Of a stretch of 64,000 nucleotides of DNA, positions 16,822 to 61,744 are shown one piece after another (positions within the stretch are counted from its first letter, which is position 1; every line of letters begins with the position of its first letter). Source of the DNA: Chrysoperla carnea (lineage: Eukaryota; Arthropoda; Insecta; Neuroptera; Chrysopidae). The stretch lies in NCBI RefSeq assembly GCF_905475395.1, contig NC_058337.1, positions 90,824,368 to 90,888,367 of the forward strand. The letters are read 5' to 3'. The notes below the pieces were generated by a model. It ran no database searches, was not told where the DNA came from, and saw only the letters and a program-made list of their open reading frames with translations. The position numbers and the translations under genes are program-made.

Positions 16822-19055
16822 ATGAAGATAATTGTAAGTTTAAAATTTCATTTTTACTTTTAAATATTAGTGATTTTTAATAAAAGTGGTTTTATTTGAT
16901 TCATAGTTTTCTTAGAAATTGAATTCATAATTTTCTAAGAAATAGGATTCATAGTTTTTTTAGAAATTGGTTATATTTTTTTGTATAGTTATTAAACTAA
17001 TAATTATAGTGTTTTGTATAGTGTATAATTGTTATAGTGTTCAAACGTATATTCAGGAAAAAAAAAATTGCCTGGAAAAAAATGGCCTAAATTGAGACAA
17101 TCACGAGTTTCAATGGGGAAAAGAACCGAGCTATAAATTCAATCCGAATTAATCCTGTTTGGTGGTCAGTGGAGCGCTGCTAGGCTGCCATTGAGAAAAA
17201 AGACGTACGAAATCCAACCTTTTCAAAATATTTTTTAAATATATTATAGTTTTTTAAAGCCAAGTTAATAATTTCAATTTTTAAATTATAAAATTTTTAC
17301 AAATAATATGTTACTAATGTTGCAGTATATTTCATGATTGCCTCAACTTGGGTCAGTTTTCATCCAGACAGTCAATTTTCTCTTGAATAACACATTGAAC
17401 TCTTCAATTTGTTATTCAAGAGAAACTACAACTTCTTATCCTTCTCCTGGGGTCATACAGAATCCAGACAATCATGGCCAATATTCTTTACAAATATGAA
17501 TATCTTTATTTTTTAGTTGGCGGGTTTTATTAAGAATTAAACGTGTTATGTAAAAAGCAAATTTTTAATTACACTGAAAAATATAGGTTGTAGTTACAAG
17601 AAAATATGTATAATATGGTAACAAGTAAATATTTTCTTGCAGCAAGTAAGCCTTATCTAGTTCAAAGATTTTCTTAACTTAAATATATAGGTTTTGATTC
17701 AAGAAACATTTACTTGTTACAAGAACAACAGTCAAATAAAATCGTTTAATTTGATTCAATAATGTTTGACTGTGTAACAATCTGAACAAAACCGATTAGT
17801 TCAAACTGTTACTTTTGACTAAGCGTATAATATACAGTTTACCAAAGTTGACTTCTTTTTTTTTGACATAATGATTTAAGTCTGGATGGCTCTGGGTAGA
17901 ATTATTATGGTTTTAGTAAAGAATTTCTCTGGAATAAATTCTCAATTTGTTCTAGAACCTAGAAACGAACTTCGAATAGAATTTTAACTTATTTATTGGA
18001 CCGCGAGTATGTAAAATTTCGTCAGATAATTTAGTTTAACTTTTAAATGAACACATTTTTGTAAGAATCGATCAATATATGATGAAAATTAATTTAATCA
18101 AAAGTATAATTTGGTCTTATTACGAATTATGGACCATTTTTTAGTATCATCAAATCACAAGTTTTATAACCCAATGATAATGTGTGTAGTTCTAGAAGGG
18201 GGTAAATTAGGACAAAATATTAGATTAATTCAGTATTTTGGAGTAAAAACAATTTTAATACTTTTTCGTTGGCGTCTTAATAGTTTCATTTCTTGACGGA
18301 CGTCAAAATTCATCGGATTATTAACAATTCAGCCATTTATATTTATGTAAATGTCTTTTTTATTTCAGGTTGTCTTTTGTGTGGGCATAGTTGGTGTTTT
18401 GTCTGCACCACCAACGTACAACAAGTACAATTTAGGTAAGCCAACGTACAATAATCAATATATACCACCAGCCAACAAATATAACCCAAGTGTTGCACAG
18501 CCAACACTGAATAAATATAATCAAAACGCTGCATCACCTACACTTAACAAGTTTAGTCAAAATGCCGCATCACCTACACTTAACAAGTATAATCAAAATG
18601 CTGCATCACCTACACTTAACAAGTTTAGTCAAAATGTTGCATCCTCTACACTTAACAAAATGAATAAAAAACCTGCTGTCTCAACATACAATCAATATAA
18701 TCGCAGTGATGATGAAAAAAATAAAGATAAAGAGGCAACCATAGTCCGTTATGAAAGTACAAATGATGGTCAAGGTAATTATGAATTTGAATATGAAACA
18801 TCAGACGGGCAAATTCGTAAAGAACGTGGTGAATTAATACAAGTTGATGGGGCTGAAGAACCTGTTATCAAAGTCACTGGCACCTATACATACCGTGATC
18901 CTGAAAATAGATCTCACACTGTTAATTATGTAGCTGATGCTGATGGATACCGTTCTATGGAAGAAGCAACACGTCAAAAAATTGTACCACAAACAGTTTC
19001 GGCATTTCAAAAACCCTTAGGTATTCTTGGAGCAGTTAGCAAGACATTAGGATGA
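16822..19055 (+). CDS. Secreted RR-1 cuticle protein with a 12-residue repeat array
   Basis: Two exons, 16822-16833 (M-K-I-I) and 18369-19055, joined in phase 0 across a 1535-base intron (GTAAGT donor, TTTCAG acceptor), give 232 residues. Residues 1-17 form a signal peptide, likely cut after LSA. Residues about 18-115 are rich in Asn, Tyr, Pro and Lys and contain five 12-residue units of the type TLNKYNQNAASP. An acidic/lysine linker precedes an R&R chitin-binding domain at about 140-199, with the Y-x-F-x-Y-E-T-S-D-G core and VNYVADADGY ending. The tail GILGAVSKTLG is shared in form with other proteins in this cluster. The family binds chitin in the extracellular cuticle; RR-1 is usual for flexible cuticle. 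The start was chosen because an open frame reaching back to 18351 begins inside the intron. Expression timing cannot be read from the sequence. Confidence 0.93.
17560..17870. repeat. Intronic stretch with short inverted motifs
   Basis: Inside the first intron, AAGAAAATAT and ATATTTTCTTG recur in opposite orientation, and CAAGTAA / TTACTTG and CAGTCAAA / TTTGACTG pairs follow. It resembles a small non-autonomous inverted-repeat element, but clear ends were not found. Confidence 0.35.
18504..18683 (+). repeat. 36-base coding tandem repeat
   Basis: Five units of 36 bases start at 18504, 18540, 18576, 18612 and 18648. They encode (T)LNK(Y/F)(N/S)QNAASPT-type units. Units 1-4 are very similar, with units 2 and 4 carrying FSQ and units 1 and 3 carrying YNQ, so the array may have grown as a 72-base pair of units. 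The fifth unit is diverged. Confidence 0.9.
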
Positions 19056-19094
19056 AGTATATTTATTATAAATGTAATTTAATTTAATATTCAA

Positions 19095-19100
19095 AATAAA
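19095..19100 (+). terminator. Polyadenylation signal
   Basis: AATAAA 40 bases after the stop codon at 19053-19055. A second AATAAA follows at 19104. Confidence 0.75.
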
Positions 19101-19146
19101 TTTAATAAAAGAAATATTTCAAAACAAATTCTTATTATTGAATTAT

Positions 19147-19480
19147 ACTAGATGACCCGTGCGAAATGTCCACACTAACAACCAGGCACCACCCAGTAAA
19201 CTATAAATTTTACTAACCCCCAAACTAAAAAAGGGGTGTTATAAGTTTGACCCCTATGTGTGTGTGTCTGTCTGTCTGTGGCATCGTAGCGCCAAAACGG
19301 ATGAACTGATTTTGATTTTGTTTGAAAGGTTATTTAATGGAGAGTGTTCTTAGCCATGTTTCAAGTCCGAAGCCATGTTTCAACCGAAAAAACTAAAAAT
19401 TGGCGATGATCTTCCAAATCGGCTCAGTTTGGAAAAGGCTTTAAGAGAAAAGGAAATTTAATGGAGAGTAACCGATAAAT
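19147..19480 (+). mobile_element. Interspersed repeat, sense copy
   Basis: A less AT-rich block with AAAAAGG(G/A)GTGTT, a (TCTG)n-like run, CATCGTAGC, a GATGAACTGATTTTGAT segment, and GGAGAGTGTTCTTAGCCATG. An inverted relative lies at 32530-32790. I recognise the general type from insect genomes; no coding capacity. It begins about 40 bases past the polyadenylation signal of the preceding gene. Confidence 0.65.
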
Positions 19481-20610
19481 TTGTCAAATGGTTCAAACAC
19501 GCATACTTTCATTTTAAAGATAAAAATCCAAAATGGCAGCCATGCAATAACCTTACTATATTTTGCTGTTCAATACATCTAAGGAGCTTGGTGAAAATAT
19601 AGTTGTATGTCATATCTAAAAATAATTCCCAAAATATTGTATTGGCTACTTCAAGGATCCAGTCGGTATAATATATAACTAAGTAGATCGAATATCAAAA
19701 TTCATTTTGTTAAAACTGGAGCAATTATATTCGCAATCTAAATTTTTGTTTCAAAACTACAAGCTAGCATATTATTAGGGTTTGTATCAATTGTTTAAGG
19801 AAATTAATTTTATTTTATTTATTGATTTTATTTGAATTTTATAGACGATAAATTGTGAAAAAGGTATTCTTCCAATATTTCGTTGGCTATAATCAAAAAA
19901 TTATGTTTGTTTAGTTCTAGAAATTCCCAAATTGATAATTTATTACCTATATTATGGTATTATATATATTCTAGCCGTACCGGTTTCTTTTTTTAATAAG
20001 AAACACAAACATAGAAATAAACAAATAAAATCATGCAATGAGAATAATTAAATCATTTAAAACAAATATTATATAATTTTTATTTAAATAATCGATTAGA
20101 ATTATTTGAAGTATCAAGGATATCTTGTACACATACATAAACGTAAGAGTAAGAAGGGAATTTTCATCTACCTAAGTACTAAAAAATTCCTTTAAAGATT
20201 TGACATTTAACAATAAGTATATAGAAAAAAATGTATACTTACATATAGTAATGCAAATTATTGTATAATAATATTTTATTATTTTTGTTTTTTAATTTAA
20301 AATACGATAAGCATTGATTTTATATAAACAATTATATTAATATCCACTCTTTTATTTATTCCATTTAGCATGATTTGATCGTATTGAATTGGAAATATAT
20401 TGACTCATAAACGAAACAAAAATCAATTTTGTACCTTTTACTCAAAATATGTACAGCAAAAATAGATGTCTCTACATAATTATTAATCTTGTAGATGCGT
20501 TATGAGTGCTGTGAAAACGTAGGGCCGTAACGAGGGTACATAGCGCCGGTGGCAAGTATTTATGTTGCGCCTTATATATTTCGGGATCGGCTCTAACGAT
20601 TTTGAGGAAA

Positions 20611-21270
20611 TTTTCAAATTTGTGATCAAAATTAACCTAGCTCTAATAGGTTTCAAGAATGTGGAGTCCTGGTCCCGGAATTAAGCACGTTAGAGATAGC
20701 TAACGAAAAATTAACATCACAGCTGAAAAGAATGACCCAAATTAGTGGGTTTCAAAAAAAAGTCCAATATGATCGGATCAAATTTGCCTGTGTTATAAAA
20801 ATAATCGAATTTTTTGACTTAATGATGTCATCAGAATCGGAAAAATTTAGTTTTGCTCTATCACATCCAAGTTTTATCCGATTTTGATAAACCAAGTATT
20901 TAATCCTACTAAATTTGGGCCATACTTTTCAAATTTGTGACAAAAATTAACCTAGCTCTAATAGGTTCAAGAATGTGGAGTCCTGGCCCCGGAATTAGAC
21001 ACGTAAATGATAGCTAGCGAATAATTGACATCACAGCTGAAAAAAGTGTCCCAAAATTAGTAGGTTTCAAAAAAAATTCCTATATGATTTGATCAAATTT
21101 ACCTGTGTTATCAAAAAATCTAATTTTTTAACTTAATGACGTCATTAAAATCAAAAAATTTAATTTTGCGCTGTCACATCCAATGTTTATGAACCAAGTA
21201 TGAAATCCTACTAAATTTTGACCATACTTTTCAAATTTGTTATCAAAATTAACCTAACTCTAACAGGTTT
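20611..21270 (+). repeat. Tandem repeat of about 0.3 kb, two full units and a partial third
   Basis: TTTTCAAATTTGT followed by AAAATTAACCTA and a TCTAA(T/C)AGG segment recurs at 20611, 20926 and 21228. Units 1 and 2 also share GAATGTGGAGTCCTGG, ATCACAGCTGAAAA, CCTGTGTTAT and TCACATCCAA. The periods are 315 and 302 bases. It is preceded by an unrelated less AT-rich segment at 20519-20600. Confidence 0.85.
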
Positions 21271-24090
21271 CGAGTGGAAAGAAATCCAATTGTTATATAT
21301 CGAAGTAATTAAAAGCTACTGGAGTACTCCAGAACCAGCAACTGCAATTTTCTAAGAATTGATGTCTCTTGCTGAGGATTAAAGTTCTGATTCATTTTTT
21401 TGACTGAATATCGGCCTGTTAGAAAGGGTAATGTATTTGAATACTTGAATGTTGTTAACATCTTCTGCATTGCGTTTCATTTTTAAGTAATGGAATTTAC
21501 GTCTTAATAAATTATTACTATAAGTATTATAAATATATTTAATTTAACAACCTTTTATTTAATTGATACATTACAGTTAAATTAAACATTTATTGAATCT
21601 AATTTGATTGACCCTGTGAGAAAAACAATAATTTTTTTAAATTAAATTTATTACCAATATAATAATGAATTTACCTATAGCTGCTATATTATATTAATTA
21701 TACAAGGGTTTATAAAATAATTAAACAAAATAATTTTACAAATTTATTAAAAAGTTAAAAAAAAATTTGATTATTAACAAAAAAAGATCAATAATATGAC
21801 AAGTCTGTTTTCCTTAATACACCATAAATTTATATATTTTGAAAGTAGGTACTTACCTTAAATAGGTTCTTTTACAGTTATTGGTATAAAAATAATCAAT
21901 TTTTAATTTTTATCTGGAAGCCTTTTTGGCTTTGATATTTCATCGGATAGTAAAAATTTTGACAATGGCTGGAAATTATCTCTATAGTTCAGTGTTGTAA
22001 CATATCTAGTTACAAATAACTGGATAAGGTATCTAAATACATTTTTTGTGTCTTGTAACTAAAATTAGATACTTTTATTTACAGTCTGTAACTGTATCTA
22101 GATATATTTTCTTTTACATGTGTCTTGAATCTTAAAATGAACATCAGACACATGTGTTTCATTTTTAAATTAATAATAAATATCAATTCGACGATTTTAC
22201 CAAATACAGAAGCTAGCGTACATTACCTACCTATATGGATCGTCTCTGTTCTGCCCCCAATGAATTTTTTCAAAATTAACCCGCTAGCAGTAGCGTCAAT
22301 CGTTTGGGTATATAAAGGAGCTTGATGAAAGATTTGCCACAAGCTCTGCGCATGCGTCAAATATTTAATCTATTATCGGGTTGACAAGAAACATTCAAAC
22401 GGAAGTACATGAACAGGACCGAAAATATGCGATGATAATACTTTTTTTGTTACGCGTTTATGCGCGTTATCAAAGAAAAGACCACAATTTCTGAACGACT
22501 TTTTTTTATAATATATTTTTATTTAAAATATGTTTTTAAAAACTGTAAATTGCTATTTCAAGTCATTGGATCATCTATCCAGTTATACAGATATCTGTGA
22601 TTTATTTGTAGATACAATACATTTTAGATTAAACGACATACTTTCAGGAAAGGTAATGATAGTTAATAGTCAAAATATTTTTAACTTTCTCAAAGACCTA
22701 TAATTTTCAGATACATACATTTTTTTAATTTGTTTTTAACTCCCAAAGTAACTAAGATATTTTAGTAGCCGTTAAGTAAAAATCGAATAACATAAGACAG
22801 AAACTTAATTAATAATTATTCGGTTCTAATTTAGATTTTATAATATCGCTTTTTTTTTTACAAAATTCCGATTTTTCTTGAAAAGATGAAAACTACATGA
22901 AAAGAATATACTATTTTACAAAAATATTATAACGAAGATATAAAAAATATGGGTGATGAATTTATTGCAAATTAAGTCGTGTTTATTATTTTGAATACAC
23001 CTCTTATAAAATTAAATAAATTCCTATAATCCTACTTAAAGTGTTATGAACGTGATTGTTTCAATAAACTATCAATGATGACTGTTTACTATAGAATCCA
23101 TTTAGTAAAAAAATGGATAATTTTTTTTAAACAAACAAAAAATTTAAGTTATTTGTGTCTACATAACATGAACGCCGTCAGTGTAATAAAATGTTCACTT
23201 GTTGCATTTTAACGTGTGATATCCCAGATAAAAAAGTCGGATTCATGAATCATAATTTTCGGATTCACTATCTTATTTCAAATGCTTTTATCTGTTAAAC
23301 GATAACAATTTCTATAAAATGTTGGCGAATATGTTTATTGATTTTGAGTCTGAAACTTACAATTTTAATCAAGGATATGAATGTATAAAAACGGTTTGGG
23401 CAGTAAAACTATACATATAAAATTTTTCGATTTTTAATTTATTTTATAACAGGAAATAACAATAATTTAGTCAAATAAGGCAAGAAATATTTTAGATGAC
23501 CTTTAAAATAAATAACCTCTACGAAATAGACAGAACAAAAATTTATTCATTGCAATTTGCTTATATACAATTTATACAAAAACAAAAAAGTTTTTTTTGT
23601 CATTGGATGCATTATTTTAAGAGAAAATAGATATTTTCAAAGATTATTTATAACAAATATTTTAAGTTAAAATTATTAAAAGTTTATTAATATGACCACA
23701 ATTGGACAAGGGATTAGGAAATGAAGCTGAACTCTGTTTACAATCCTATTGTTTTTTAGAACTGATTTCAAAAAATAAAATAATAGAATTGCTGTATCAA
23801 TTAAATATTCCATTTATTATTTCAGGCTGTTTAATTATTTTAATTAGATAAGGTGACGCAATAAAATACAGGCATGAAAAGGACAAACAAAATATATGCT
23901 ACTATTTCGTACATCTCTTGTTATTTACAATAACTGTGCTACTGGAACCACCTTAAGTGTTTTTTTTTTTTAATATATGATTTTACATTGATAATAAAAT
24001 AATAAAATAATATTGATAAAAATGTAGTAGTAACGTTTATTTACATTTTAAATAAATATTTACTTTTTTGAATTTTTTTTTTTCCGAAAA
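21271..24090. other. AT-rich intergenic stretch
   Basis: No gene, RNA gene or repeat unit was recognised. Confidence 0.5.
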
Positions 24091-24096
24091 TGCGAA

Positions 24097-24227: not shown

Positions 24228-24689
24228 TTATGTCTGGCGATAATCACGCTTTGGTGTTCGTATAATATCGTTATACCTTGGTATATGTGCTCCTTGTGGT
24301 TGAAAACCATTTTCATCAGCTAAATAATTAACTCTGTACTCATTCCCATCTGTAACAAATACAAAATATCCTTGTACACTATACGCTTCATATTTTGTTC
24401 CTGGAAATTGTAGAAATCCTTCTTCGTAACGTTTTGTTCCATCAGATAATTCATAAGTAAAATTGTATTTTCCATTCAAACCATTATTGTTATTAATGTA
24501 TTTGATTAAATATACTTTCTCATTGGACAACCCTGATGGTATTTTTTGTGTTTGCGCAAATGTTGTTATAATTACTAATAAAACGAATATGAACAATAAT
24601 GAAATCTAAAAAATATCAAACAAATTATATGCAGATTATAATAATTATTTTTTAATTTAGAAAATTCTATGATAAATTACCTTTGTCAT
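24228..24689 (-). CDS. Compact secreted RR-1 cuticle protein
   Basis: Exon 1 is 24681-24689 (M-T-K, donor GTAATT) and exon 2 is 24228-24605, with a 75-base intron and a phase 0 join, giving 128 residues. Residues 1-20 are a signal peptide ending TTFA. The R&R chitin-binding domain spans about 48-112 with KYNFTYELSDG, a GYFVFVTDGNEYRVNYLADENGF-type second half, and the conserved PQGAHIP end. The short tail is basic and lacks the ILGA motif of its neighbours. The length fits typical RR-1 larval cuticle proteins, secreted and chitin-binding. It faces away from the repeat-bearing gene at 16.8-19.1 kb. The frame also opens at a TTG inside exon 2, but the upstream ATG exon is the better start because it completes the signal peptide. 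Confidence 0.92.
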
Positions 24690-34423: not shown

Positions 34424-35838
34424 TTAAATAGCCTTTGATATAGCACCTAAGATTCTGGGCGCAATTTCTTCGTCTTCGGCATCAGGAGCACGTGGTAGAT
34501 GATCACCTTCTGGATGGAATCCAGTTGCATCAGCTGTATAACGTACAGTATATTCCACACCATTCTCAACAAATGAGAACAATCCTTTGACTGTTATTGA
34601 TGGAGCTTCCCCACCAGCATCTTCTAGCTTTCTAGTTTCTTTGAAATGTGTTCCATCATTTAGTTTATAATTAAAATGATAATTTCCATCAGTAGCATCA
34701 TGTCTATTTACTTCTTTGACAACTTCGACTTCTGATGCTGGTTTAGCAAAAGTAATTGCAATAAATGCAAATGATAATACAATGCTCTGAAACAATATTA
34801 AAACAACATAACAAAGAGAATAACGTGCTTTTATAGGCAATAATAATGAGAGTGATATGATCCAAACTATATGAGGCGCCCTAATTTTATTATACACTAA
34901 TATACATGCTACCTGTTTTTCTGTATCACAGTGAAACATTATAAATATTATTTACAGACAGTATTTTAATATTATCGTAAATTTATCAGATTTTACGCAG
35001 GAAAAAATGTTTTCTCGACTCAAGAATATTAAAGAAGTACGAGCACGGTACGTTAAGTTAGCAGGGCTATGAACAACTTTGATGATGAATATTGTTTTTT
35101 CCTGATGAAAAGTAAGAATTAAATTGATTGATATCTGACTTGATTTTTTAAATACTGAAGACTGAATAGTTGAAACGAAACTTTCAACTTTCGAAAACTA
35201 AATCAGATACAAAAAATTTTATTATAACTTTCATCTACTTTTGTCAAGAAAATTAAATTTTTTGACAAATCTGACATCCCTTTAACACTGATCGTATACA
35301 TCCATAATGATGTCGGTTGACGAGGATTTTATTTTTTTTAAGTAGGTAGTTTTTTTCCGATTTCTTTTGTCAATTTGGGTTAAAGTTATCAAATAACCCG
35401 CCTACCAACCGCTTTTCCATAAAACCCAATGTTGAAGAGTGTATACTTTTGACGTTAATTAATTATTTAAATAATCGGTCAAAATCCCTCAAATTTTTCA
35501 AATGCATGTAAACGTATTTAAACTTTATATATATAAAAAAACAATCTTGCTCAAGAGTGAGTCAAAGATTGTTGAATCAGAAATTTTTTTTTATTGTACA
35601 GCGGCTTGTGTGCTATTATGTCGATGGCGGTACAAAATTGTACAATTTTTGGGATTTAAAATGATAAATAAACTATGTTTAGCCGCGAAATAGGAGATTA
35701 CAGAGCCAGCAAAATAGTTAATATTGATATAATATTAAATAAATTTTAGTTGGATAATATGTTTAGAAAAAACTTTCATTTAAAATAAGCTTTAAGGTAA
35801 TTGTAAATTAAAATTAAACTCACATAATGTAATTTCAT
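34424..35838 (-). CDS. Secreted RR-1 cuticle protein, paralog A of three
   Basis: Exon 1 is 35824-35838 (M-K-L-H-Y, donor GTGAGT) and exon 2 is 34424-34786, phase 0, intron 1037 bases; 125 residues. Signal peptide 1-19 ends ITFA, before KPA. The R&R chitin-binding domain covers about 39-103: GNYHFNYKLNDG, a GLFSFVENGVEYTVRYTADATGF second half, then PEGDHLPRAP. The last ten residues, RILGAISKAI, match the end of the R&R-less protein at 39453. Size and domain fit soft-cuticle RR-1 proteins, secreted and chitin-binding. Exon 2 is almost identical to those of paralogs B (56419-57607) and C (60524-61744) except near the 3' end. A longer open frame that begins with an ATG at 34937-34939 is intron read-through; the short exon restores a complete signal peptide. 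Confidence 0.93.
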
Positions 35839-39452: not shown

Positions 39453-39834
39453 TTACAAAGCTTTGGAAATAGCACCTAATATACGAACTTTAAGGACTTC
39501 TTCTTCTTCTGGAACAACTGAATCAAAAAGATTCAGTTCTGTAGTAGTAATTCCATTATCATTGTCTAAGTCTGATTTTTCATTTTTAATTTCACCACTT
39601 ATTTCTGAACTCAGTTTTGTTTCATCTTTTGGATTCTTTTGTACATCAGTTTTATCATCTGCGGGTCTTGCAATTGATATTGTAAACAACGCCATTAATA
39701 AAATTATTGACTAAAATAGAACAAAAATTAATTAACACCTTCGTTCAAACATAGTTTTATTTTTAAGTCACTTTGAAACTATTCGATATATTTTTTAGAA
39801 ATCTCACTTATTAATTACTACTTACATATTTCAT
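39453..39834 (-). CDS. 88-residue secreted protein with ILGAISKAL tail and no R&R domain
   Basis: Exon 1 is 39826-39834 (M-K-Y, donor GTAAGT) and exon 2 is 39453-39710, phase 0, intron 115 bases. Signal peptide residues 1-17 (MKYSIILLMALFTISIA) resemble those of the RR-1 paralogs and the 43.4-kb gene, including S-I after the splice site and an (R/K)PA start of the mature chain. The middle, about 18-78, is rich in Asp, Glu, Lys and Ser, with no R&R domain and no other domain I recognise. It ends in RILGAISKAL, which differs from the end of the RR-1 protein at 34424 only in the last residue. A TATA box and AATAAA frame the gene, so it looks active. The function is unknown; a secreted, probably cuticle-associated protein is an inference from the cluster. 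The opposite-strand open frame here is a shadow. Confidence 0.85.
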
Positions 39835-43363: not shown

Positions 43364-44128
43364 TTAAGAAGACTCATGCTCATGTTCTTTTCTAGCTTTG
43401 ATTCTTTCTTGGAAAGCACCCAATATGGGTTTAGCTCTTTCCTTTAGAAAACCAAATACTTTCGAATGCTCTTCTTTAGAATCATCATCGGATTTTTCGT
43501 TGTCTTTATCGGCTGGTTCTGACTTGGATTTAGGTTCATCGCTCTTTTTAGAATCAGTTGTATCCTTTTCTGCAGGTTTCGCATATACAATTGCAAATAA
43601 TGCAATTAATAAAATTATTGACTGAAAAATAAAAGTGTAAGAATCAGAATCAATTTTTTAATGAAATTAAAAGTAAAGTGTCAATTGATGAAAGTTAAGT
43701 GTCAACTACCGTAGAGGAGGAGAGGCGTAAAACTTTCAATGTAAAACTTTAAAGTCGTAGTCGGTTTTATCTTCATAGTAGGCGTACGTGTTCATACAGG
43801 TAGGCTGACTATGAAGCACATAATCGCTTAGTGTTGTGAATCCCTTTCAGAAACCAAAAACCGCCATTATGCGCTCTGTGTCGGCAAGTCGGTTATAAAA
43901 GTTACTAATCATTACCTGTTAAATGTTTCACTTGACTAAAAATATTTATTATTTAGCGTAATGTCATTACGCATATGAAAGAGTGAATTTTGAAAATATT
44001 GGTGTACTGAAGTCTTTCAATAACAGTATACTTTTTAGTAATTGGAGTTAAGTAGTATCTTTTAACACACCTTTGATTAAAAATAATAAAACAATTAAAA
44101 ATAAAGAAATATTACTTACGTATTTCAT
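43364..44128 (-). CDS. 88-residue secreted Lys/Glu/Ser-rich protein with an ILGA motif, no R&R domain
   Basis: Exon 1 is 44120-44128 (M-K-Y, donor GTAAGT) and exon 2 is 43364-43621 (acceptor CAG), phase 0, intron 498 bases. The 258-base second exon and 88-residue length equal those of the 39.5-kb gene. Signal peptide 1-17 (MKYSIILLIALFAIVYA) is followed by KPAEKD. Residues about 18-57 are almost all Lys, Asp, Glu, Ser and Pro. The tail has KPILGAF at 67-73, then a charged extension ending in EHEHESS. No R&R domain or other known domain is present. The frame is easy to miss because no ATG lies in exon 2 on this strand. A dead copy follows at 44762-44855. It is a probable sister of the 39.5-kb gene; function unknown. 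Confidence 0.82.
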
Positions 44129-44216: not shown

Positions 44217-44761
44217 TAAATTTTAGTTATAAAAAAGTGCTCATTTTTAGATAACCTCCCTTTGACATGCATAAATTCAGTATTCAACAGTGTTATAAAG
44301 TAAGAATCATTTGGTTGCACGACACATAATTAGAATTCCATCACCTTAACTTCAGCCTAATTGTCTAGGCATTCAATTTCTCATCAAATTCAAATACACT
44401 CGACATTATCGCATTAAAAAAATGTTTTTTCCATTTAAGAGCGTCAAATTTTTGGCTTAAGATTTTTTTTGGACAATTTTTACAAAAGTAAGGCCGTGTT
44501 TTGTATCAAAAATTTTCATAGTTAAACGATCAGCGCGGGATGAAATCAATAAATTTTCCTTTTGGCTGCCACCAAAATTTTTGAAAATATTAACTTTTCC
44601 CGGCAGACTAAAAAATACTTGACGGCTGTACGGTTTATTTTTGGTGGAGATACCGAATTCGAAATTAAAAGGAAAATAAGAGCCTTTTAAAAAAAGGAAA
44701 ATTGAAGAAGGTTGGAAACACTAATGCTTAGTACACACCGAAGGATGTGTAGGAGCTCGTG

Positions 44762-44855
44762 GTCTTAGTTTAATCTTCTTGCTCTTTTTAAAATCAGTCG
44801 TATATTTCTCTGAAGGGCTCCCATTTGCTCATAAGGTAATCAATAAAATTATTAA
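44762..44855 (-). pseudogene. Relic of a second copy of the 43.4-kb gene
   Basis: On the minus strand this stretch aligns with exon 2 of the gene at 43364-44128: ATAATTTTATTGATT against ATAATTTTATTAATT, then ACGACTGATTTTAAAAAGAG against ACAACTGATTCTAAAAAGAG. The acceptor AG is changed to GG, a TGA stop interrupts the signal-peptide part, and the 3' half is unrecognisable. Intron-like similarity continues to about 45010 (AAAGTGTC, AACTTTCAAT-type blocks). No first exon was found. It is a tandem duplicate that decayed. Confidence 0.75.
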
Positions 44856-44859
44856 CCAA

Positions 44860-46450
44860 AACATAAATATGTAAGAGGTACAATTTTCTATTAAATTAAA
44901 ATATAATATTAAATATAAAATAAAAAGTGTCTCTTAAATTGAAAATACCGGTGGTGCGCGCGGGGATATTCTGTGAGTGGAAGTTTTCAATCTAAAGTTT
45001 TGAAGTTATAATAAGAGTTTGCTTATTATGCATCGTTACTACGATATATTTAGTCTCTTAAATAGAGAAAGTATCCTTAAAGTAGACATTTCAAATAACT
45101 ACTTAATTTTAATACAAAATTTTGTTGAAGTAACTTTTACGCCTTGAAATTCTATAATAATTTGTTATTTTTGTTCTGCATTTAAGTGTCTACAGTGAGA
45201 TAATGTATTTGTAAAGATGAATAAAAAAGTAGCCGCGTTTAATAAAATAAGCAGACGCTTTCTCTGTGAATTTAATGCATTCACACATTAATCATCCCTT
45301 TACTAACTTCAGAAAAAATATATAATGGGTAACGGGTGTCAAATTAACAAAACAAGCGGACTTCTTGTTTTTTGCTGTACAAGTCCAATGATAATGGAAA
45401 AATTAACAAAATGGACTGCTTTGTAGATTTTGGTGGTATTCATAATAATATAACGACGAAAATATTATGCTGGGTGACGTTTGCCATGTGAATTGTTCTT
45501 ATTTAACATATTTCGTGTTACTATAATTTTCATCACATTTAATCGCTAAGACGTTTGTGTTAGCACAATTGAATGATCTAATATATAGACATATCAAACT
45601 CAACACCCTCTCTCAATCAGGTAAATTAAAGGAATGCAAATATTCTTTAAAAAATAAAAACTGAATTCATCCGAAAAAGAAACATGTCTACATGAAGGTA
45701 AACAAAGTATTTTCTCAGAAATAAAACCAAATAATTATATGAATACTATAATTTGAATTTGAAATGATATAATAAAACCAAACATTTATAAATTCATTCA
45801 TTTTGACCTTCAATTTAATTGTTATCTAATTATCTATCTTATCGTATCATTCTAAATAATGAGTGTGAACAGCAGACTTTAATCAATCGTTAGTGCACAC
45901 CTTTTGTTTAACGACAATCGAATATATTTGTATTTAATGCCCAATCGAAATTGTAGGCAGTATTTCTTTACGTTATAAAACATGATGTCAAATGATGTGC
46001 GCAATTTCCTACGATAATTCCTCCTCGTTCTCAAAAAGAATCAGAAACAATTGAAACCATTCAAATTTCCTCAAATAATTATTTAGTGTGCTTTAAGACC
46101 GGGTAACCGGTGACATCAGAAATACCGTTATAGCGGAATTTTTCAAAGTTTAAGCAGACTAACATAAAAAGTTCGCTAATTTCTGATATATCCTATCGAA
46201 AATATTCGTGCTACTAAATATGATAAATGTATGAAACATATGACATTTAACAGGAAATCTTAAACACATTAAGAAAAACTTGGTATGACTACCGCGATCA
46301 CTAAGTTCACCAAAAATATATTGCAAACACGCTGTGAGTACTGCTAATAAACAAAAATAGTATTCCTATTTTTCAGATGCGGAATTTTTTTTTAAGCAAA
46401 ATCTTTTTTAGCCTGGAATGTTTCTTTAATAAATACGCAAATTAATTTTT
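44860..46450. other. AT-rich intergenic stretch
   Basis: Apart from the intron-like remnant of the pseudogene at its start, nothing is recognisable. Confidence 0.45.
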
Positions 46451-46511: not shown

Positions 46512-48420
46512 TCAACCTCCCTGTCGGCCTTGGACTCCTCTCTTGGCTGGAGATTTTACAATTATACCCAAAATTCTAGAATCTAGCTCTATTGGTGAAT
46601 TCGTTCTTAAAAATGGATTTAAAGTATTCGTTTCATATTGAAATATATCATCATAAGCATTCGTTGATGCAAGAGGAGAATGAACTTTTGATCGAAATCC
46701 ATTTTTATCAGCCACATATGACACATAATGAATTCTATCTTTTTCTTGAAATTCATATGAGCCATATACATTACTATTCTTATTTTCATCCAATTGACCA
46801 TGACTTTCAACTTTTGTCCCATCTGATAATTCGTAAACTAAATCATACACTCCATTTTCCTTGTTTTGATTTTGATTTCTTAAAATATAAACTTCATTAT
46901 TTTGTGCAAAGCCCGGTGTACTCTTCGTTAGAAGCAATACTGAAAACTGAAAAAATTTTTTTATTGATTTGTGGTTATTACTCTTCAATTCATTTAATAC
47001 TAAAATACTTGGAAAATTATCAATGACTGACTAGAGCACTAGTTTTACAATTTGAAAATGTTTATAGTACCTATGCCATTTTTTCTCTCAAAGGACATGC
47101 TAAAAAATTAGAATAATTTAATTCTAAAAAAAAAACGTTTTTAACGAGACTTCATTTGTCAAATTATGATGGATAGTTTGGAATATAGGACAGAACAGAC
47201 GAAAATATATACAGTTTAAACTATTTTGCTGTTATAGTTTCGTGATAAAGTAAAATAATATATCTATTTCTGAAAATTGCTAATTACGCCTTTTTATTTT
47301 ATACAATACACGCTATCATATCGAAATTTGTTTTTCAATTATAACTTTATGTCCTCGACAGGACGTTATATTCAATTTAATGTGACGTCACATAGCCTTT
47401 AACCAGCGATTGATACAGACGCTGGTTTAACGTAACCTCATATGTCAAATTATGATAAGTAGCTTAGAAGATAAGAGGAAACAGATGAACATACATATAT
47501 ACCGGTCAAACACTTAACCCTCAACATAGTATAGTCGGGGTAAAAAATTTTAGCTAATAACAGTTTACGTAGGCTACCTATTCGTCATAATGATTGTTTA
47601 GATTTTTAAGTCAAGGACATCCAATTAAAGAAAACCTTTCGGAAATTTTAATTTGCTCATAATATAGCCGCCATCATCTTGGAGAAAAAGTATATTTCTC
47701 TAGATCTTGATACGTACTTAAAATACAAGAAAATAGTTATAAAGAAAATAGATTATGTTTTGTTTAACTATATAGAACATGTACTTTTGATTCGAACAAT
47801 TTTTAAAAACTGTAAGGCTTGAGCTTAATTCCTGGTATCGATATATTATTTGTTTTAAGATCAAAAAGGGACTATAACACGGGATAGCATTATTGTATGG
47901 AACACAAAGTGTGTTATGTATCCAGCTGCTGTAACGCAATTCATTATTAGTAATCAGTATTGAAAAGCGCGCACAACACGTTTTTTCAACAATAGAACAC
48001 ATAGGATACAGTAATGTAAACCGTTATTCGAAAGTGCACGAGACGCGATAGCTGAGGCACGTAATGGGAATTATTCTATGGTGCAGGAAGCCTATGCTAT
48101 GCAGGTATCTAATATAATTCTAAAATTTGATATGTTTTCCAGCTGTTTGACACGTACGCATAGTGAGATTTTTGCTAGAAAAAACAACGCGAATTATCAT
48201 TTAAAAGCTAAAAAATAAGATACAAGTTGAGCATTATGCAACTGGTTATATTGTATTTGTTTAATTTTTGTATTACCTAATTAGAGTGTATCAATCACTG
48301 ATTTGTTTAATCAATTTATGTTCAAAAAACTTGCCGCTAACACTATTTTCACTTTAAACCTTAAAAATAAATATAATATTTTAAAAACACAATAGAACTT
48401 ACCATAAAGTAAACAAACAT
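46512..48420 (-). CDS. Divergent secreted RR-1 cuticle protein with extended tail
   Basis: Exon 1 is 48403-48420 (M-F-V-Y-F-M, donor GTAAGT) and exon 2 is 46512-46946, phase 0, intron 1456 bases; 150 residues. Signal peptide is about 1-20. The R&R domain at about 38-95 has VYDLVYELSDG, so the usual central Phe of Y-x-F-x-Y is Leu, then GSYEFQEKDRIHYVSYVADKNGF. After it comes a 35-residue Asn/Thr/Ser-rich linker, then RILGIIVK at 130-137, a variant of the cluster's tail, and a basic Gly/Gln end (residues 140-150). Chitin binding is likely but the core substitution makes it less certain. The open frame reaching back to 46988 on this strand is intron read-through, and the plus-strand frame at 46592-47026 is a shadow. 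Confidence 0.87.
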
Positions 48421-50860: not shown

Positions 50861-51463
50861 TACCATGCATATATGTAATATCCAAGGTATACTAAGTTTA
50901 GCCCCAAGTTTGTAACGCTTAAAAATATTGATGCTACGCGCAAAATTTTTGCATAAGTGTTCATAAAATCACCTTATTAGTTCATTTTCGGTTATCCGCC
51001 CGTCCGTCTGTGTGTCTGTGAACACAATCACTAAAAAACGAAAAAAGCTATAAAGCTGAAATTTTTACACTGTACTCAGGACGTAAAAATTGAGGTCGAG
51101 TTCGTAAATGAGCAACATAGGTCAATTGGGGCTTGGATCCGTAGAACCCATCTTGTAAACCGTTAGAGATAGAAAAAAAGTTTAAATGTAATAAATGTTT
51201 CTTATCAAAAAATAAACAACTTTTGTTTGAAACATTTTTTCGTAAACATCACTGTTTGCCCGTGAGGGTGCAAATTAGGCGTAAATTGTATAGTATGTAT
51301 TAATATGGGAATATCAGTTATGTATACTCAATTGCACAAAAAATGCATCAGATTACATATAATATTATATGTAAAAAGAGCTTTTCTTTGTGACATTAAG
51401 TATATGTGTGACATGTATGTATGTGTAATGTGGTAGAGTAACCAACACTGTGTATGCATGGTA
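50861..51463 (+). mobile_element. Non-autonomous inverted-repeat element (TACCATGCATA ends)
   Basis: The left end TACCATGCATATAT and the right end TGTATGCATGGTA are inverted repeats. Inside are CAAGGTATACTAAG, CCCAAGTTTGTAACGC, GATGCTACGCGCAAAATTT, TTCATTTTCGGTTATC, a CCGTCTGTGTGTCTG run and AAAAAACGAAAAAAGC. This is the most complete of three copies; the others are at 13069 and 30117. No coding capacity. Confidence 0.75.
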
Positions 51464-53550: not shown

Positions 53551-53554
53551 TTGG

Positions 53555-53674: not shown

Positions 53675-54987
53675 ATGAATTCTTTTGTGGTGAGTTGGTC
53701 GAATATTTGATTGGGAAAAGTGTATTGTGTGTTCAGAAAAAGTTGTTTCAATATGTGAAAATTTGTGTGTTGCAGGCATTTATTGGTTTACTTTTATTGG
53801 TTACTTATGTACAAAGCCGTCCAACCGATAGTGATAATAGTGGTAAATCGTCAACAAATCGTAAACCAGAAAAAGAAATTGTACCATACATTATTCATTA
53901 TGAAAATGATAAGAGTGAGGAAGGATACAACTTTGCGTAGGTTTCAACTTTTTCATCGTTTTTTAAATTTTATGAATTGTTATTCAAGACGTTGCTAATT
54001 ATTTTTAAATGTGCGAAATTTTTTTCGAAATCTAGTTTCCGTGCATACAGGCACAAATCGGTAAAAATACTCTAAATCTTTCAAATACAGGTTTATGACA
54101 AAAAGTGCTATAAGTTTCAAAATATATCGAAAATTTGGTTGTTTATATACATTCAAAAAAATTGTGTATTAACGTGTATTATTTTAGAGGTCACTATGTC
54201 ATTACACATTAATGTAGTGTTTCAAACATTTCACGCAGTATCGCTTTTGATTCCGAGAAAATTGGGGGATTTGTAAAAACTGGTATAATTGGCGGAAAAT
54301 TTGAGTAGCCGTAGCTTGACAATCATCTCGAAAATTTAATTTCTAATTTTTCAACGGGAATTTAAAGTATTTTATCGTTTTGTACTTACTGGTTTCTTGA
54401 ATATGCAGAAAAAGGTGATGGTACTTCAAGAAAACAAAAATTCAAAATGACGTAAAATTGTTTTCATCTATTTAACTATTCGGTCAGTTGTAGGCTTTAT
54501 GTACATCGATTTCCTTTCTGTATTTTCGTGAAGTCAATTAAAAAATGAGGAGGACCAATAAAATCGTTAAATATTTCACCATTTTCTAATCTAGTAGCCG
54601 GGCTAATATTATAACGTTTTTAATGGTCATACAAACCCCGACAAAAGATGTTCTGCATTTAATTCTGTAATTATTGGATGATGATAAAAAAAATTCCAAA
54701 TTAGAACTACTTAAGGAAATTAGAAACAAAAAGATACTTTTGAAAAGTTTAATAATTGATTTTTTTTTATCAAATTCAGCTATGAGACATCTGATGGGAT
54801 TGCTCGTGAAGAGGAAATGGAAATGATGAATGCTGGTACTGATGACGAGTATATTATAATGCGTGGAAGTTATTCATACGTAGGACCCGATGGTGTTTTG
54901 TATACTGTGTCATATGTTGCTGATAAAGATGGTTTCCGGCCAACTGGCCCACATTTACCTACAAGTAATTTAATTCGAAGAAAATAA
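53675..54987 (+). CDS. Secreted RR-1 cuticle protein, three exons
   Basis: Exons 53675-53689 (M-N-S-F-V, donor GTGAGT), 53776-53936 and 54780-54987 give 127 residues. The second donor GTAGGT at 53937 leaves two bases of a codon that the first base of exon 3 completes, so the R&R core reads GYNFAYETSDG. Signal peptide about 1-19 ends YVQS, before RPTD. A basic/acidic linker precedes the R&R chitin-binding domain at about 55-119, ending ADKDGFRPTGPHLP. A short basic end follows; there is no ILGA tail. It is the only gene here whose R&R domain is split by an intron. Without the join, the exon 2 frame stops at once in a TAG that overlaps the donor. Family role: chitin binding in flexible cuticle. 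Confidence 0.92.
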
Positions 54988-55069: not shown

Positions 55070-55075
55070 AATAAA
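55070..55075 (+). terminator. Polyadenylation signal
   Basis: AATAAA about 83 bases after the stop at 54985-54987; a second one at 55080. Confidence 0.7.
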
Positions 55076-55990: not shown

Positions 55991-56026
55991 ATATTCGTTG
56001 CATAGACTATTTATAGCGTAGGTAAT

Positions 56027-56269
56027 GGTGGGTCCACACGATAACAACTTCACACAGACTTCTATAGAATTTTGTCTGCGCAACAAATCAGTGCAAACAA
56101 AAAGGTAAAGCCTGAGTTATAAAAGTCTGAGCACGGAAGTTGGAAGTATTCCCATACTAATGATAAGTCTGCACATACATTTCGTCATCACATTCACATC
56201 AACATTTTTACTCAGACTTTCAGTTTGTACAGATCTGTACAAACAATAGTCTGTATCGTTGGACCCACC
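56027..56269. mobile_element. 243-base inverted-repeat element
   Basis: The ends are GGTGGGTCCA and TGGACCCACC, with CGAT and AGACT just inside both. It contains a 22-base perfect palindrome centred on AGATCT at 56223-56244. A copy without the left end lies at about 60155-60378 in duplication copy 3, and copy 1 lacks it, so it inserted before copies 2 and 3 separated. No target duplication is clear. Confidence 0.7.
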
Positions 56270-56380
56270 GAAAAAGGAGGAAGTAAAGGATTGCAACTGT
56301 AATTGTGAGTCTAATAAAACTATAACATAGTATGGGTACATAACATAAATAAATCAACCTGGTCTTGTTTCAACAAATTT

Positions 56381-56386
56381 TTTATT
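56381..56386 (-). terminator. Polyadenylation signal
   Basis: Minus-strand AATAAA 33 bases after the stop at 56419. Confidence 0.7.
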
Positions 56387-56418
56387 TATAAATTACAGTT
56401 TTTATAAAATCTAATCAA

Positions 56419-57607
56419 TTAAATAGCCTTTAGAATAGTTCCTAAAACTTCGGGCGAAATATCGTTTTCTTCGGCATCAGGAGCACGTGGTAGATGATCA
56501 CCTTCTGGATGGAATCCAGTTGCATCAGCTGTATATCGTACAGTATATTCCACACCATTCTCAACAAATGAGAACAACCCTTTGACTGTTATTGATGGAA
56601 CTTCCCCACCAGCATCTTCTAGCTTTCTAGTTTCTTTAAAATGTGTTCCATCATTTAGTTTATAATTGAAATGATAATTTCCGTCAGTAGCATCATGTCT
56701 ATTTACTTCTTTGACAACTTCGACTTCTGATGCTGGCTTAGCAAAAGTAATTGCAATAAATGCAAATGATAATGCTATGCTCTGAAACAATATTGAAGCA
56801 ACATAACAAAGAGAATAACGTGATTTTATGGGAAATAGTAATGAGAGTTATATGGTCCAAACTATATGAAGTCCCCTATACTTTAATTATTGCGTGCGAA
56901 CTGAATTCAAAGCTTCAACTGAATAATATACGCGATCCCTGTTTTCCCGTATAACAGTGAAACATTATGAAAATTATTTACAGACAGTATTTTAAGTAGT
57001 ACTATTAAGTTAGCAAGATTATGTATTAAATTTTCAACTTTGATGATGAATTTTGTTATAACCTGGTGAATTTAGACGAAAAGAAAGAATTAAATTGATC
57101 AATATCTAACTTTATTTTTGAAATGCCGAACTAGATTGAATTATTAAAACGAATTTTTAAATTTTTCATAACTGAACTAGAAACGAAAAATTATATTCTT
57201 TCTTTCGTCTAATTTTGTCAAGAAAATGAAATTTTTTGACAAATCTGTAATTACTTTAACACTGATCGTATATATGATTTTTTTAAATTTCTTGATATTA
57301 AGGTCTTAACTTAAAATAAAATATTTTTTTCCCATTTTCTTTGGTCAAATTTGGATTAAAATGCCTTAAATTTGTAGAATTAATTTCCGCTATACCGCAT
57401 TCGATTATTCGATTTTTAAAGATACATTAATTCATCCACTGCACATGTTACTCAACAGAAATATGAGATGACAGAGTCAGGAAAATAATTAATTTTGAAA
57501 TAATATTACATAGATTTTAGTTTTAATTTATTTAGAAAAAGCTTTCATTTTAAAGAAGCTTTAAGGTAATTGTAAATTAAAATAAAACTTACATAATATA
57601 ATTGCAT
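56419..57607 (-). CDS. Secreted RR-1 cuticle protein, paralog B of three
   Basis: Exon 1 is 57593-57607 (M-Q-L-Y-Y, donor GTAAGT) and exon 2 is 56419-56781, phase 0, intron 811 bases; 125 residues. Signal peptide is 1-19 (ending ITFA), the R&R chitin-binding domain about 39-103. From residue 18 to 109 it differs from paralog A only at residue 66, where Val replaces Ala. The tail is changed from RILGAISKAI to EVLGTILKAI and the acidic segment before it also differs, so divergence is concentrated at the C-terminal end. Its 3' flank carries the inverted-repeat element at 56027. Intact TATA, splice sites and AATAAA suggest it is functional; the three paralogs are presumably co-expressed cuticle components. 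Confidence 0.93.
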
Positions 57608-57682
57608 TGTTAAATTTTCCAGAGGTTATTTAGAAGAATATTTGAATTAATCTATACACAAATTGAACGCCAATAATTTTAC

Positions 57683-57701
57683 TATATATATATATATATA
57701 T
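57683..57701 (-). promoter_or_regulatory. TATA tract of paralog B
   Basis: Nineteen alternating T/A bases starting 76 bases before the ATG, within the conserved promoter block shared with paralogs A and C. Confidence 0.75.
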
Positions 57702-58539
57702 TGAATTTTTTGTTTATAAAAAAAACCAGCTGAGTAAGTACTCTTTTTTAAAAATAAAACGATGGTAGCGCATAAACTAGCGGTGTCATATTTGAAACCA
57801 CAGTCAAATAATAATAATAGTTTAAAAAAAAAAATTGTCTTCCTCTATTTTAAATTCGGGCCTTATACTTTCAATACTGTTCAATCTCACTCATCTGACA
57901 CTTCAAGTGATCAATACGACCAATAATTCGGCACTCCACAGCAATCGAAATTTGTGAAAAAAATTACCAGAACAGATGATTTTCTTGCTAATGATGATAT
58001 TTATTATGATTTTTCTTTAAAATCTAGTGATTCGAACAATAATCCGGGACCTTCTAGTTTTTAATAGTGCCGAATTAGTGAGATTGTAGGCTCTTCATTT
58101 GTCTGTTACCAAAAAATGCATCTCAAATTTAAAATAAAAAGTTGAAGCTGTGTAGCTCGCCAGTTTACCTCCAGTCCAAAAAGGAAATGAATCATCTACT
58201 AAAACAAGCAGTGACAAGATGCCATGACGGATGACGGTAGCCTTACACAAACAGTTGAAGCACTGAAAGAACTCACCTGATCATAATCGATTGTAATCCC
58301 ATGGAATGTGATGAATAATTTCTGGAAGAATATATACACCTGAATCGACGCCATGTTGTTGGAGCTTGTTTTCAAGCTCAGCTAGACTTGTATAATGTTC
58401 TTGATTGTTTTAAGGTAATGAAATAACAATTTACTAAGCTTACTATCCTAATATGCAATATATACTTTATTCAAAAATTAAATGCATGTTATTTTAATTT
58501 TTCATGTAGGTATTTCTCTGCCCCAATCTAAACAGCCTA

Positions 58540-58695
58540 ACAGCCTACACCGCTGATCGCAGAGACCTGAAGCTTTTGTGGTGGGCTTGACGTATGACGT
58601 AGGCATCCGATAAGAAAAGATTTTCCGAATTTCTACTCTTAAGAGGGTGAAATAGCGAATAGAAGAGTGTATGAATGTCCGTCATTTTTGAGCCC
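58540..58695 (+). mobile_element. Interspersed repeat of the 36.5-kb family
   Basis: CAGCCTACACCGCTGATCG, ATGACGTAGGCATCCGATAA and GATTTTCCGAATTTCTAC match 36590-36680. Confidence 0.6.
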
Positions 58696-59304
58696 ACCTA
58701 TTTAACCGATTTAAAAAATTATTTCTCCTATAGAATACTACATTGTCAGCAAGTAACATGGGCTATATTTTATTTAAAAAATTAGGGTTCTATGTTAAAA
58801 TAAAAATGTATTAAGTGTAAACCAGTGATCCTAGAAAGTCGAAAATATGTACTTTTGTATGATACTTTTTGGCAGTTAAAGCTTACTTTTTTATTTATTT
58901 AAGAAAAACTGAATTTTCAATGCATATTTTCCATTTGCCAAATTTTCGATGCAAGGTTATTGACGTTATTGTGGTACATTCTATCAAGTACCTATAGAAC
59001 CCAATTTTCATCGAGTTTGAAAAATTTTTAAGCTTAAAATTTTTATTGCTTAACCATTAACTTATTATTATTTATCATGTCCAATGGCTACTTATGGTTA
59101 TTATTATTACGTTCCAAGGCGCCAACACTGTCTTGTTCTTAATTGATGATTTAATTCAATTTAATTGTGTGTGACCTTCTGCAAGGGATATTTTTCTAAT
59201 AAAATAAATATATTTTGACATAGCCTAACCATAGCCATAGTATATTACAAATATTTAAATATTTTGATAATTAATTCATTAACTGAATAATGAACCTATA
59301 AAAT

Positions 59305-59480
59305 GCTTTGTCCTGGATGACTGACGGATCATTGCAGAGGCTAAACCACTGATCGTAGAGACCTAAAACTTAGAGAATGTGTTCTTTGTATGATGTTGGC
59401 ATTCGATTAGAAAGGATTTTCCAAAATTCTACCCCTAGGGGGGTAAAAACAGGATGCAAATTTTTTATATGGAAAACCCA
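59305..59480 (+). mobile_element. Interspersed repeat of the 36.5-kb family, second in this block
   Basis: GCTTTGTCCTGGATGACTGA, TAAACCACTGATCGTAGAGA and TTTTCCAAAATTCTACCCCT match the family. The same copy recurs at 62693-62865. Confidence 0.6.
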
Positions 59481-60489
59481 TGTTAATAATTTTATAGACA
59501 AATGTATACATGTATATAGATACATGTTCGCATGTTTGTCATGTCACTTTAGTTTTCAACTTCATGAGGTTTATATATATTTACAGAGACTTTGAATTTT
59601 TCTTCTCACAAGCGGTATTTTTGGAATCATTATTTATAAACTCAAAGTCTGAAACTTTATTTTATCGTTTTACGTACGTATATTATACGTACAAATATTA
59701 AAACAGTTCTATTATTACAGTATCTTTATACATAACAGTCTGCATCAAATCCGATAGTTCTGATTTCTCGCAGACTTGTTTACGATGTTATTCCAATGAT
59801 TAATCCTAAATTTTCAGGATTTTTCGATTTTCGACAAAGTTGCGTTTAGCGCTCGAAGTCGCAAACTTCATTAGAATTATTTATTAGACCAACATCATAA
59901 ACAATTCTGCAAAAAATCGAAACTACCGGATTTGATGCAGACTACTCCGTTTTTTTTTCAAACGACAAGGTTACTGTATTATCTGTGTTTTTCTAATTAT
60001 TCTGTGAGTATATTTTTGGTTTGTATAAAAAATTCCAATGTCATTAATACGACACAATTACGAAGGTCCTAAATTTTATAAATTTGTAATTTTTTATGAT
60101 ACCTTTTATTTTACCAGATTTTAACAGATAAAAATAAGGAAACAAATATTAACTATAGAATTTTGTCTGCGCAACAAAACACTGCAAACAAACAACCATT
60201 CGGTATAATGGTAAAGTCTGAGTTAAAAAAGTCTGAGCACGGAAGTTGAAAGTATTTCCATACTAATGATAAATCTACACATACATTTCGTCATCAGATT
60301 TACATGAACATTTTTACTCAGACTTTCAGTCTGTACAGATATCTGTACAAACAATAGTCTGCATCGTGCGGACCCACCAAACAAAGAGGAAGTAAAGGAT
60401 TGAAACTGTAATTGTGAATCTAATAAAACTATAACATAGCATGGGTACATGACATGGGTAAATCAACCTGGTCTTGTTTCAACAAACTT

Positions 60490-60495
60490 TTTATT
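60490..60495 (-). terminator. Polyadenylation signal
   Basis: Minus-strand AATAAA about 30 bases after the stop at 60524. Confidence 0.7.
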
Positions 60496-60523
60496 TATAA
60501 ATAACAGTTTTTATAAAATCTAA

Positions 60524-61744
60524 TTAAAGAGCCTTTAAAATAGTTCCTAAAATTTGGGGCGCAATTTCGTTTTCTTGGGCATCTGGAGCACGTGGTAGAT
60601 GATCACCTTCTGGATGGAATCCAGTTGCATCAGCTGTATAACGTACAGTATATTCCACACCATTCTCAACAAATGAGAACAATCCTTTGACTGTTATTGA
60701 TGGAGCTTCCCCACCAGCATCTTCTAGCTTTCTAGTTTCTTTAAAATGTGTTCCATCATTTAATTTATAATTAAAATGATAATTTCCGTCAGTAGCATCA
60801 TGTCTATTTACTTCTTTGACAACCTCGACTTCTGATGCTGGCTTAGCAAAAGTAATTGCAATAAATGCAAATGATAATGCTATGCTCTGAAACAATATTG
60901 AAGCAACATAACAAAAAAAAATAATGTGATTTTATGGGAAATAGTAAATAGAGTTATATGGTCCAAACTATATGAAGTCCCCTAATTTAATTAGGGCGTC
61001 GGAACTGAATTCACAACTTCAACCGAATAATATACGCGATCCCTGTTTTTCCGTATAACAGTGAAACATTATGAAAATTATTTACAGACAGTATTTTAAG
61101 TAATATTATTGTAAGTTGATCAGATTTTACACAGGAAAAAATGTTTTCTCGACCCAAAAGTATGGAGGAAGTACGAGTAGGCCACGTTAAGTTAGCAAGA
61201 TTATGTTTTAAATTTTCAACTTTGATGATGAATTTTGTTATAACCTGGTGAATTTAGACGAAAAGAAAGAATTAAATTGATTTTTAAATTTTTCATAACT
61301 AAACCAGAAACGAAAAATTATATTCTTTCTTTCGTCTAATTTTGTCAAGAAAATGAAATTTTTTGACAAATCTGTAATTACTTTAACACTGATCGTATAT
61401 ATGATTTTTTTAAATTTCTTGATATTAAGGTCTTAACTTACAATAAAATAATTTCTTCCCATTTTCTTTGGTCAAATTTGGATTGAAATACCTTAAATTT
61501 GAAGAATTAATTTCCGCTATACCGCATTCGATTATTCGATTTTTATAGAGACATTAATTCATCCACTACACATGTTACTCAACAGAAAAATAAGATGACA
61601 AAGCCAGGAAAATAATTAATTTTGAAGTAATATTACATAGATTTTAGTTCGAATTTATTTAGAAAAAGCTTTCATTTTAAAAGAAGCTTTAAGGTAATTG
61701 TAAATTAAAATAAAACTTACATAATATAATTGATATAATTGCAT
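60524..61744 (-). CDS. Secreted RR-1 cuticle protein, paralog C of three
   Basis: Exon 1 is 61721-61744 (M-Q-L-Y-Q-L-Y-Y, donor GTAAGT) and exon 2 is 60524-60886, phase 0, intron 834 bases; 128 residues. A 9-base tandem duplication in exon 1 adds Q-L-Y to the start of the signal peptide compared with paralog B. The mature chain matches paralog A through the R&R domain, about residues 42-106, then ends QILGTILKAL. Promoter, splice sites and AATAAA are intact. Role as for the other two paralogs: a chitin-binding structural protein of soft cuticle, inferred from the R&R family. Confidence 0.93.

Follow-up and report, generated by a model that had tools for sequence, protein, structure and literature searches.

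In the CPF/CPFL family of cuticle proteins (PF11018), some members (CPFL) have only a C-terminal motif in common with the domain-bearing ones, according to section 4.2 of PMC12426002, a paper that also gives GFNAVV as the ending of the RR-2 domain. Concerted evolution is described for Drosophila CPR arrays by Cornman 2009 (PMC2793513), and other cuticle motifs are dealt with in the relevant parts of PMC2932725. No open-licence paper was found with ILGAISK or with five RR-1 tail strings, and no open-licence paper title on cuticular protein work in Chrysoperla or Neuroptera covering the present cluster was found. Here we describe a short C-terminal tail with the consensus R-I-L-G-A-I-S-K-A-L in a 64,000-nucleotide stretch of Chrysoperla carnea chromosome 1 (90,824,368-90,888,367; the window, in which positions are counted from the first letter), which lies inside an RR-1 (PF00379) cuticular protein gene cluster. 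The tail is a real, local and mostly ordinary feature. Comparison of the sequences leads us to give about even credence to an ordinary RR-1 (CPR) cluster in which the tail of a local group would be a diverged form of the IPEAIxKAL segment that follows the domain in some other RR-1 proteins.

A search of the genome with PF00379 gave 140 R&R matches, many of them at 90.44-91.05 Mb of chromosome 1. The window holds ten CPR-like genes (A18, B24, C30, D34, E39, F43, G46, H54, I56 and J60), most of which follow one plan, judged from consensus and by eye only, with a tiny first coding exon, an intron and an exon 2 that opens with a signal-peptide-like sequence. A18, B24, D34, G46, I56 and J60 have a Pfam R&R domain above the 25-bit cut-off and H54 scores 69.9 bits, while E39, F43 and C30 have no Pfam R&R (PF00379) match, with none for E39 and F43 at E up to 0.1. 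We take the domain ending GFxPxGxH[LI]P to mark the RR-1 type; it fits D34, I56, J60, B24 and H54, and the divergent endings of A18 and G46 match neither the RR-1 nor the RR-2 form. D34 is related by sequence to the solved chitin-binding protein 9l0p (E 1.6e-9), and chitin binding by D34 itself is putative.

A six-frame scan of the window with the strict form [IV]LG[AT][IV][SL]K gave five occurrences, all of them protein ends (A18, D34, E39, I56 and J60). The RR-1-type gene A18 on the plus strand (16822..19055; exon 1 at 16822-16833, MKII, placed on the basis of ATG, donor and TATA-like site only; exon 2 at 18369-19055) has its R&R domain at 18762-18959 and the tail ILGAVSKTLG at 19023-19052. 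On the minus strand, the RR-1 gene D34 (34424..35838; exon 1 at 35838-35824, consensus only; exon 2 at 34786-34424) carries R&R at 34696-34490 and RILGAISKAI at 34456-34427. Its duplicates, also on the minus strand, are I56 (56419..57607; exon 1 at 57607-57593, exon 2 at 56781-56419), with R&R at 56691-56485 and EVLGTILKAI at 56451-56422, and J60 (60524..61744; exon 1 at 61744-61721, MQLYQLYY, by eye; exon 2 at 60886-60524), with R&R at 60796-60590 and QILGTILKAL at 60556-60527. The small gene E39, minus strand and without R&R (39453..39834; exon 1 at 39834-39826, MKY; exon 2 at 39710-39453), begins in a signal-peptide-like manner by eye and ends in RILGAISKAL at 39485-39456. The motif is looser and internal in F43 and G46, both on the minus strand. 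F43, the paralogue of E39 and likewise without R&R (43364..44128; exon 1 at 44128-44120, MKY; exon 2 at 43621-43364), has PILGAF at 43429-43412, with 16 residues from PILGA to the stop; a TATA-like site was looked for in this gene and none was found. G46, an RR-1-type exon 2 (46512..46946; placement of exon 1 unsettled), has R&R at 46865-46680 and RILGIIVK at 46577-46554, followed by 13 residues. All seven peptides listed in the earlier note are present in the sequence at the places it gives, and gene and Pfam placement bear out its statement that the tail stands outside the R&R domain and occurs with and without it. The other three of the ten, B24 and H54 (R&R) and C30 (an R&R-like remnant), do not have the motif.

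The C-termini were compared pair by pair with 2000 shuffles each, giving a floor of p 0.0005, and A18-D34, A18-E39 and D34-E39 all reached this floor. G46 gave p 0.0015 with D34, 0.005 with E39 and 0.15 with A18. Because its six pairs ranged from p 0.016 to 0.66, with four of the six above 0.1, the tail of F43 is hardly above chance when taken alone. Between A18, D34 and E39 the residues are kept despite differing codons, as the earlier note had pointed out with a correct example (CTT GGA GCA in A18 against TTA GGT GCT in D34). Its count of seven holds for the presence of the motif but overstates the independent evidence: because D34, I56 and J60 are duplicates and E39 and F43 share their first ~50 residues, the tails are not independent and represent about four lineages (A18, D/I/J, E/F and G). 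The residue before ILG or VLG is R in D34, E39 and G46, E in I56, Q in J60, G in A18 and P in F43.

Within 264 kb of chromosome 1 (C1:90654368-90918367, window included), a looser pattern at most 20 residues from a stop matched 12 times. Six of these matches are A18, D34, E39, G46, I56 and J60, and the other six are short chance frames with at most 32 codons ahead of the match; F43 does not satisfy this pattern. The ends of R&R matches were read for seven in the window and 102 outside (16 flanking, 6 and 80), leaving 31 of the 140 unread, and a stop was visible in 72 of the 80 and hence in 94 of the 102 outside matches. The tail is present in five of the seven window R&R genes and in 0 of these 94, where ends were read to the first stop regardless of introns, so that a tail lying in a later exon could have escaped notice, the six-frame scan being confined to the 264 kb. 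[IVL]LG within the last 20 residues occurred in one of the 72, where it is located inside the domain. Used as a genome query, the 20-residue tail of E39 matched only itself; it missed even D34 and is thus uninformative on rarity.

Some other RR-1 proteins of the genome continue after HLPTPP or a similar domain end with PPPIPEAILK, IPEPILRALEIL, IPELIARALKWIE and others, and 14 different C-terminal segments from RR-1 genes outside the group carry an IPEAIxKAL-like sequence after the domain. As previously noted, the tail does fall outside the R&R consensus, but a similar segment is found at the same place in some ordinary RR-1 proteins. When a profile of the tails (F43 left out) was compared with a profile of the 14 segments, a single register, with the I of ILG on the I of IPE, was obtained in 7/7 subsets, and column shuffling gave p 0.013 for all six rows, 0.005 without G46, 0.007 for D/I/J and 0.024 for E39. 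The tail is most likely a diverged form of this post-domain segment (PPPIPEAIxKAL) in which I, A/T, I, K, A and L/I were retained and L-G took the place of P-E. Its spread through the local group would be due to gene duplication, and in E39 and F43 the R&R domain would have been lost or replaced inside exon 2, with signal peptide and tail retained. The tail itself would probably act as a short amphipathic helix that makes hydrophobic contacts among matrix proteins and tolerates conservative change.

Several observations weigh against this derivation. The 14 segments were hand-picked for the pattern and hand-aligned; one of them represents four genes whose ends are alike, and another (C1:90938269) comes from a match with internal stops. 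Neither A18 alone (p 0.15) nor G46 alone (p 0.79) matched the IPEAIxKAL profile. A single-sequence profile test was dropped as proof: two of four non-tail controls, at p 0.02-0.03, scored near the best tails, and the test is therefore unspecific. P-E, the best-conserved letters of the ordinary segment, are absent from the tail, and among the 16 flanking R&R matches 11 stop a few residues past the domain with no such segment. The closest R&R relatives of D34 outside its trio belong to these 11 or are B24; they end in HLPKAPSA, HLPKEQ or HIPRYND.. and have neither form, so that the tail must have been lost in them or gained in D34. A tree of the R&R domains (C1:90938269, C1:90988844 and RR-2 genes excluded) does not unite A18, G46 and D/I/J, though it is weakly resolved, with 14 of 26 inner branches open. 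Regarding the helical role, the full 19-residue stretch of E39 has a low helical moment of 0.23, and a clean amphipathic face over its whole length is therefore unsupported.

The tail might instead be a short docking helix under purifying selection, that is, a binding module common to R&R and non-R&R proteins, which we consider possible but rather unlikely. D34, I56 and J60, recent duplicates over exons, intron and flanks, bear on this most directly. D34 is 76-77% identical to I56/J60 in the intron, 97-98% in the mature body of exon 2 and 75-79% in the tail, and 69-72% over the stop and about 150 bases of 3' flank. D34 and I56 differ at 14/57 tail sites and 177/753 intron sites (Fisher p 0.87), D34 and J60 give p 0.75, and between I56 and J60 the tail has changed more than the intron (p 0.023). 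Among the three proteins 10/19 tail residues are variable versus 1/87 in the mature body, and dN/dS in the tail is about 0.9 (D-I), 0.65 (D-J) and 1.9 (I-J) versus 0.04-0.09 in the body. We also simulated neutral change at the substitution rates of the intron, allowing no stop codon to arise. The last ten residues were kept no better than in these simulations (p 0.16-0.22 for D-I and D-J, 0.60-0.68 for I-J), as was the 19-residue tail when scored by identity (p 0.11-0.99). Scored by similarity, the 19 residues were marginally better kept for D-I and D-J (p 0.017-0.047), which favours a docking helix slightly, and not for I-J (p 0.63-0.69); the signal was stronger in the acidic stretch ahead of the motif (p 0.03-0.07 for D-I and D-J) than in the motif. 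Given that the tail has diverged at the pace of the intron while the body is near-frozen, recent selection on the motif is unsupported in D/I/J. The earlier note had proposed selection on the peptide, a claim that was to fall if the tail changed at a neutral rate; on this branch it fails, with tail and intron evolving at the same rate.

Comparison of D34 with E39 points the other way. Nine of their last ten residues are common, while the differences at 8/30 bases of the tails divide into 5 synonymous (7.8 sites) and 3 non-synonymous (22.2 sites; Fisher p 0.016), a figure biased by the choice of a stretch for its likeness. A18, in turn, keeps ILGAxSK with other codons. The D34-E39 pattern suggests an older constraint on the tail; if it later gave way to drift in the I/J lineage, this pattern and that of D/I/J would both be accommodated. 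An AlphaFold model of E39 (with F43), mostly of low confidence (mean predicted local distance difference test score, pLDDT, 58), has a helix at residues 67-84, with a mean pLDDT of 76 over 71-80 and 68 over 81-85, as a docking helix would have it. For D34, a poor model from an alignment of seven window proteins (mean pLDDT 49) showed a strand-rich domain and a coil tail. Helical moments are higher than in most shuffles for the D, I, J and E tails (p 0.000-0.021), and not for A, F and G. Of the amphipathic helix suggested before, the predicted helix of E39 and the high D/I/J/E moments are in favour, whereas the coil of the poor D34 model is not.

That recombination or gene conversion carried the tail from neighbour to neighbour, for example between an E39-type and a D34-type gene, in place of plain descent appears quite unlikely to us. 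The weakly resolved tree does not gather the R&R domains of the genes with the tail into a single clade, and the nearest R&R relatives of D34 lack the tail, both of which such transfer would produce. The exon 2 body also appears to have been homogenised between D34 and the I/J pair (34424-34786, 56419-56781 and 60524-60886), its synonymous sites differing less than the intron (7/70 versus 177/753, p 0.010; no such effect for I-J, p 0.15). This suggests gene conversion whose boundary lies close to where the R&R domain stops and, roughly, where the tail sets in. However, the homogenised part is the body and not the tail, and because the D34 and E39 tails differ at 8/30 bases, five of them synonymous, any transfer between these two would have to be old. 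Still less probable is chance or convergence, by which few residue types would yield hydrophobic helical C-termini; four of six F43 pairs and A18-G46, all with p above 0.1, would agree with it, but the A18, D34 and E39 pairs lie at the shuffle floor and the tail is found in 5/7 window R&R genes versus 0/94 outside with a visible stop.

E39 and F43 are paralogues whose first ~50 residues are common (pairwise E 1e-11), and the ILGA of F43 aligns with the ILGA of E39. At E up to 1 they are each other's sole relatives in the genome (E 0.028 and 0.048). In a search of the 264 kb run with no low-complexity filter, the start of F43 resembled the cluster CPR gene C1:90777997 (E 3e-4, 54 residues) and E39 matched the CPR gene C1:90785117 at E 0.025. 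A18 was entered there from 18381 instead of 18369, four residues short at its beginning, with no effect on the comparisons of its tail and R&R domain. A broken F43-like stretch with an internal stop lies just upstream of F43 at 44739-44864 on the minus strand (E 0.019 in the 264 kb search). E39 and F43 might represent a family, specific to this lineage, of small secreted cuticle proteins that gave up the chitin-binding domain and retained a C-terminal helix in common with the neighbouring CPR proteins, a helix that would link them to chitin-bound partners, although we think this unlikely. Most improbable of all is that proteins of the E39/F43 type are acidic secreted precursors from which a cationic C-terminal peptide is freed after arginine (R / ILGAISKAL), since, for all the signal-peptide-like start, long acidic stretch and basic end of E39 and the R before ILG in D34, E39 and G46, this R is replaced in I56, J60, A18 and F43, no dibasic site is seen by eye ahead of the tail, and the genes are located among cuticle genes.

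Among the genes without the tail, B24, an R&R gene in the same block (24228..24605, minus strand), ends in HIPRYNDIIRTPKRDYRQT. H54, an R&R gene on the plus strand (53675..54987), ends in GPHLPTSNLIRRK and has an extra intron within its R&R domain, with an exon end near 53936 and the next start near 54780 (splice sites by eye). C30 (30583..30999, minus strand), CPR-like and without a Pfam R&R match, shares the exon plan of CPR genes, weakly resembles G46, B24 and D34 in its R&R-like part, and is either a remnant or a fast-changing gene. To the left of the window, six CPR genes (C1:90766382-90778197 and 90785117-90788915) form three pairs of near-alike copies on opposite strands. The window also contains a dispersed repeat at 13196-13318 and 50996-51118, whose copies are 83% identical, and a long AT dinucleotide run at 14530-14594.

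Should the tail be no more than a drifting variant of the usual RR-1 end, it makes a small note on the evolution of a lacewing cluster. The part that deserves a second look is E39 and F43, small proteins without R&R: proteins with only the tail in common would allow the role of sequence beyond the R&R domain to be put to the test. As in RR-1 CPR genes (PF00379), the genes of the window have R&R in 7/10 cases, the typical gene plan and a tandem arrangement; a hydrophobic segment after the domain occurs in part of the family here. Unlike them, an ILG.I.KA-type tail (loose in G46) stands in place of IPEAIxKAL in five of the seven R&R genes, and E39, F43 and C30 are without an R&R match. The homogenised coding body of tandem copies is like that of the Drosophila CPR arrays of PMC2793513, whose main text mentions neither 'C-terminal' nor 'tail' (0 occurrences each). 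Membership in CPF/CPFL was considered and rejected, since the ten window proteins gave no hit to PF11018 at E up to 0.1. CPF/CPFL (PMC12426002) nevertheless offers an earlier example of a C-terminal motif that links a cuticle family, the domain-bearing members being, in the present cluster, CPR proteins.

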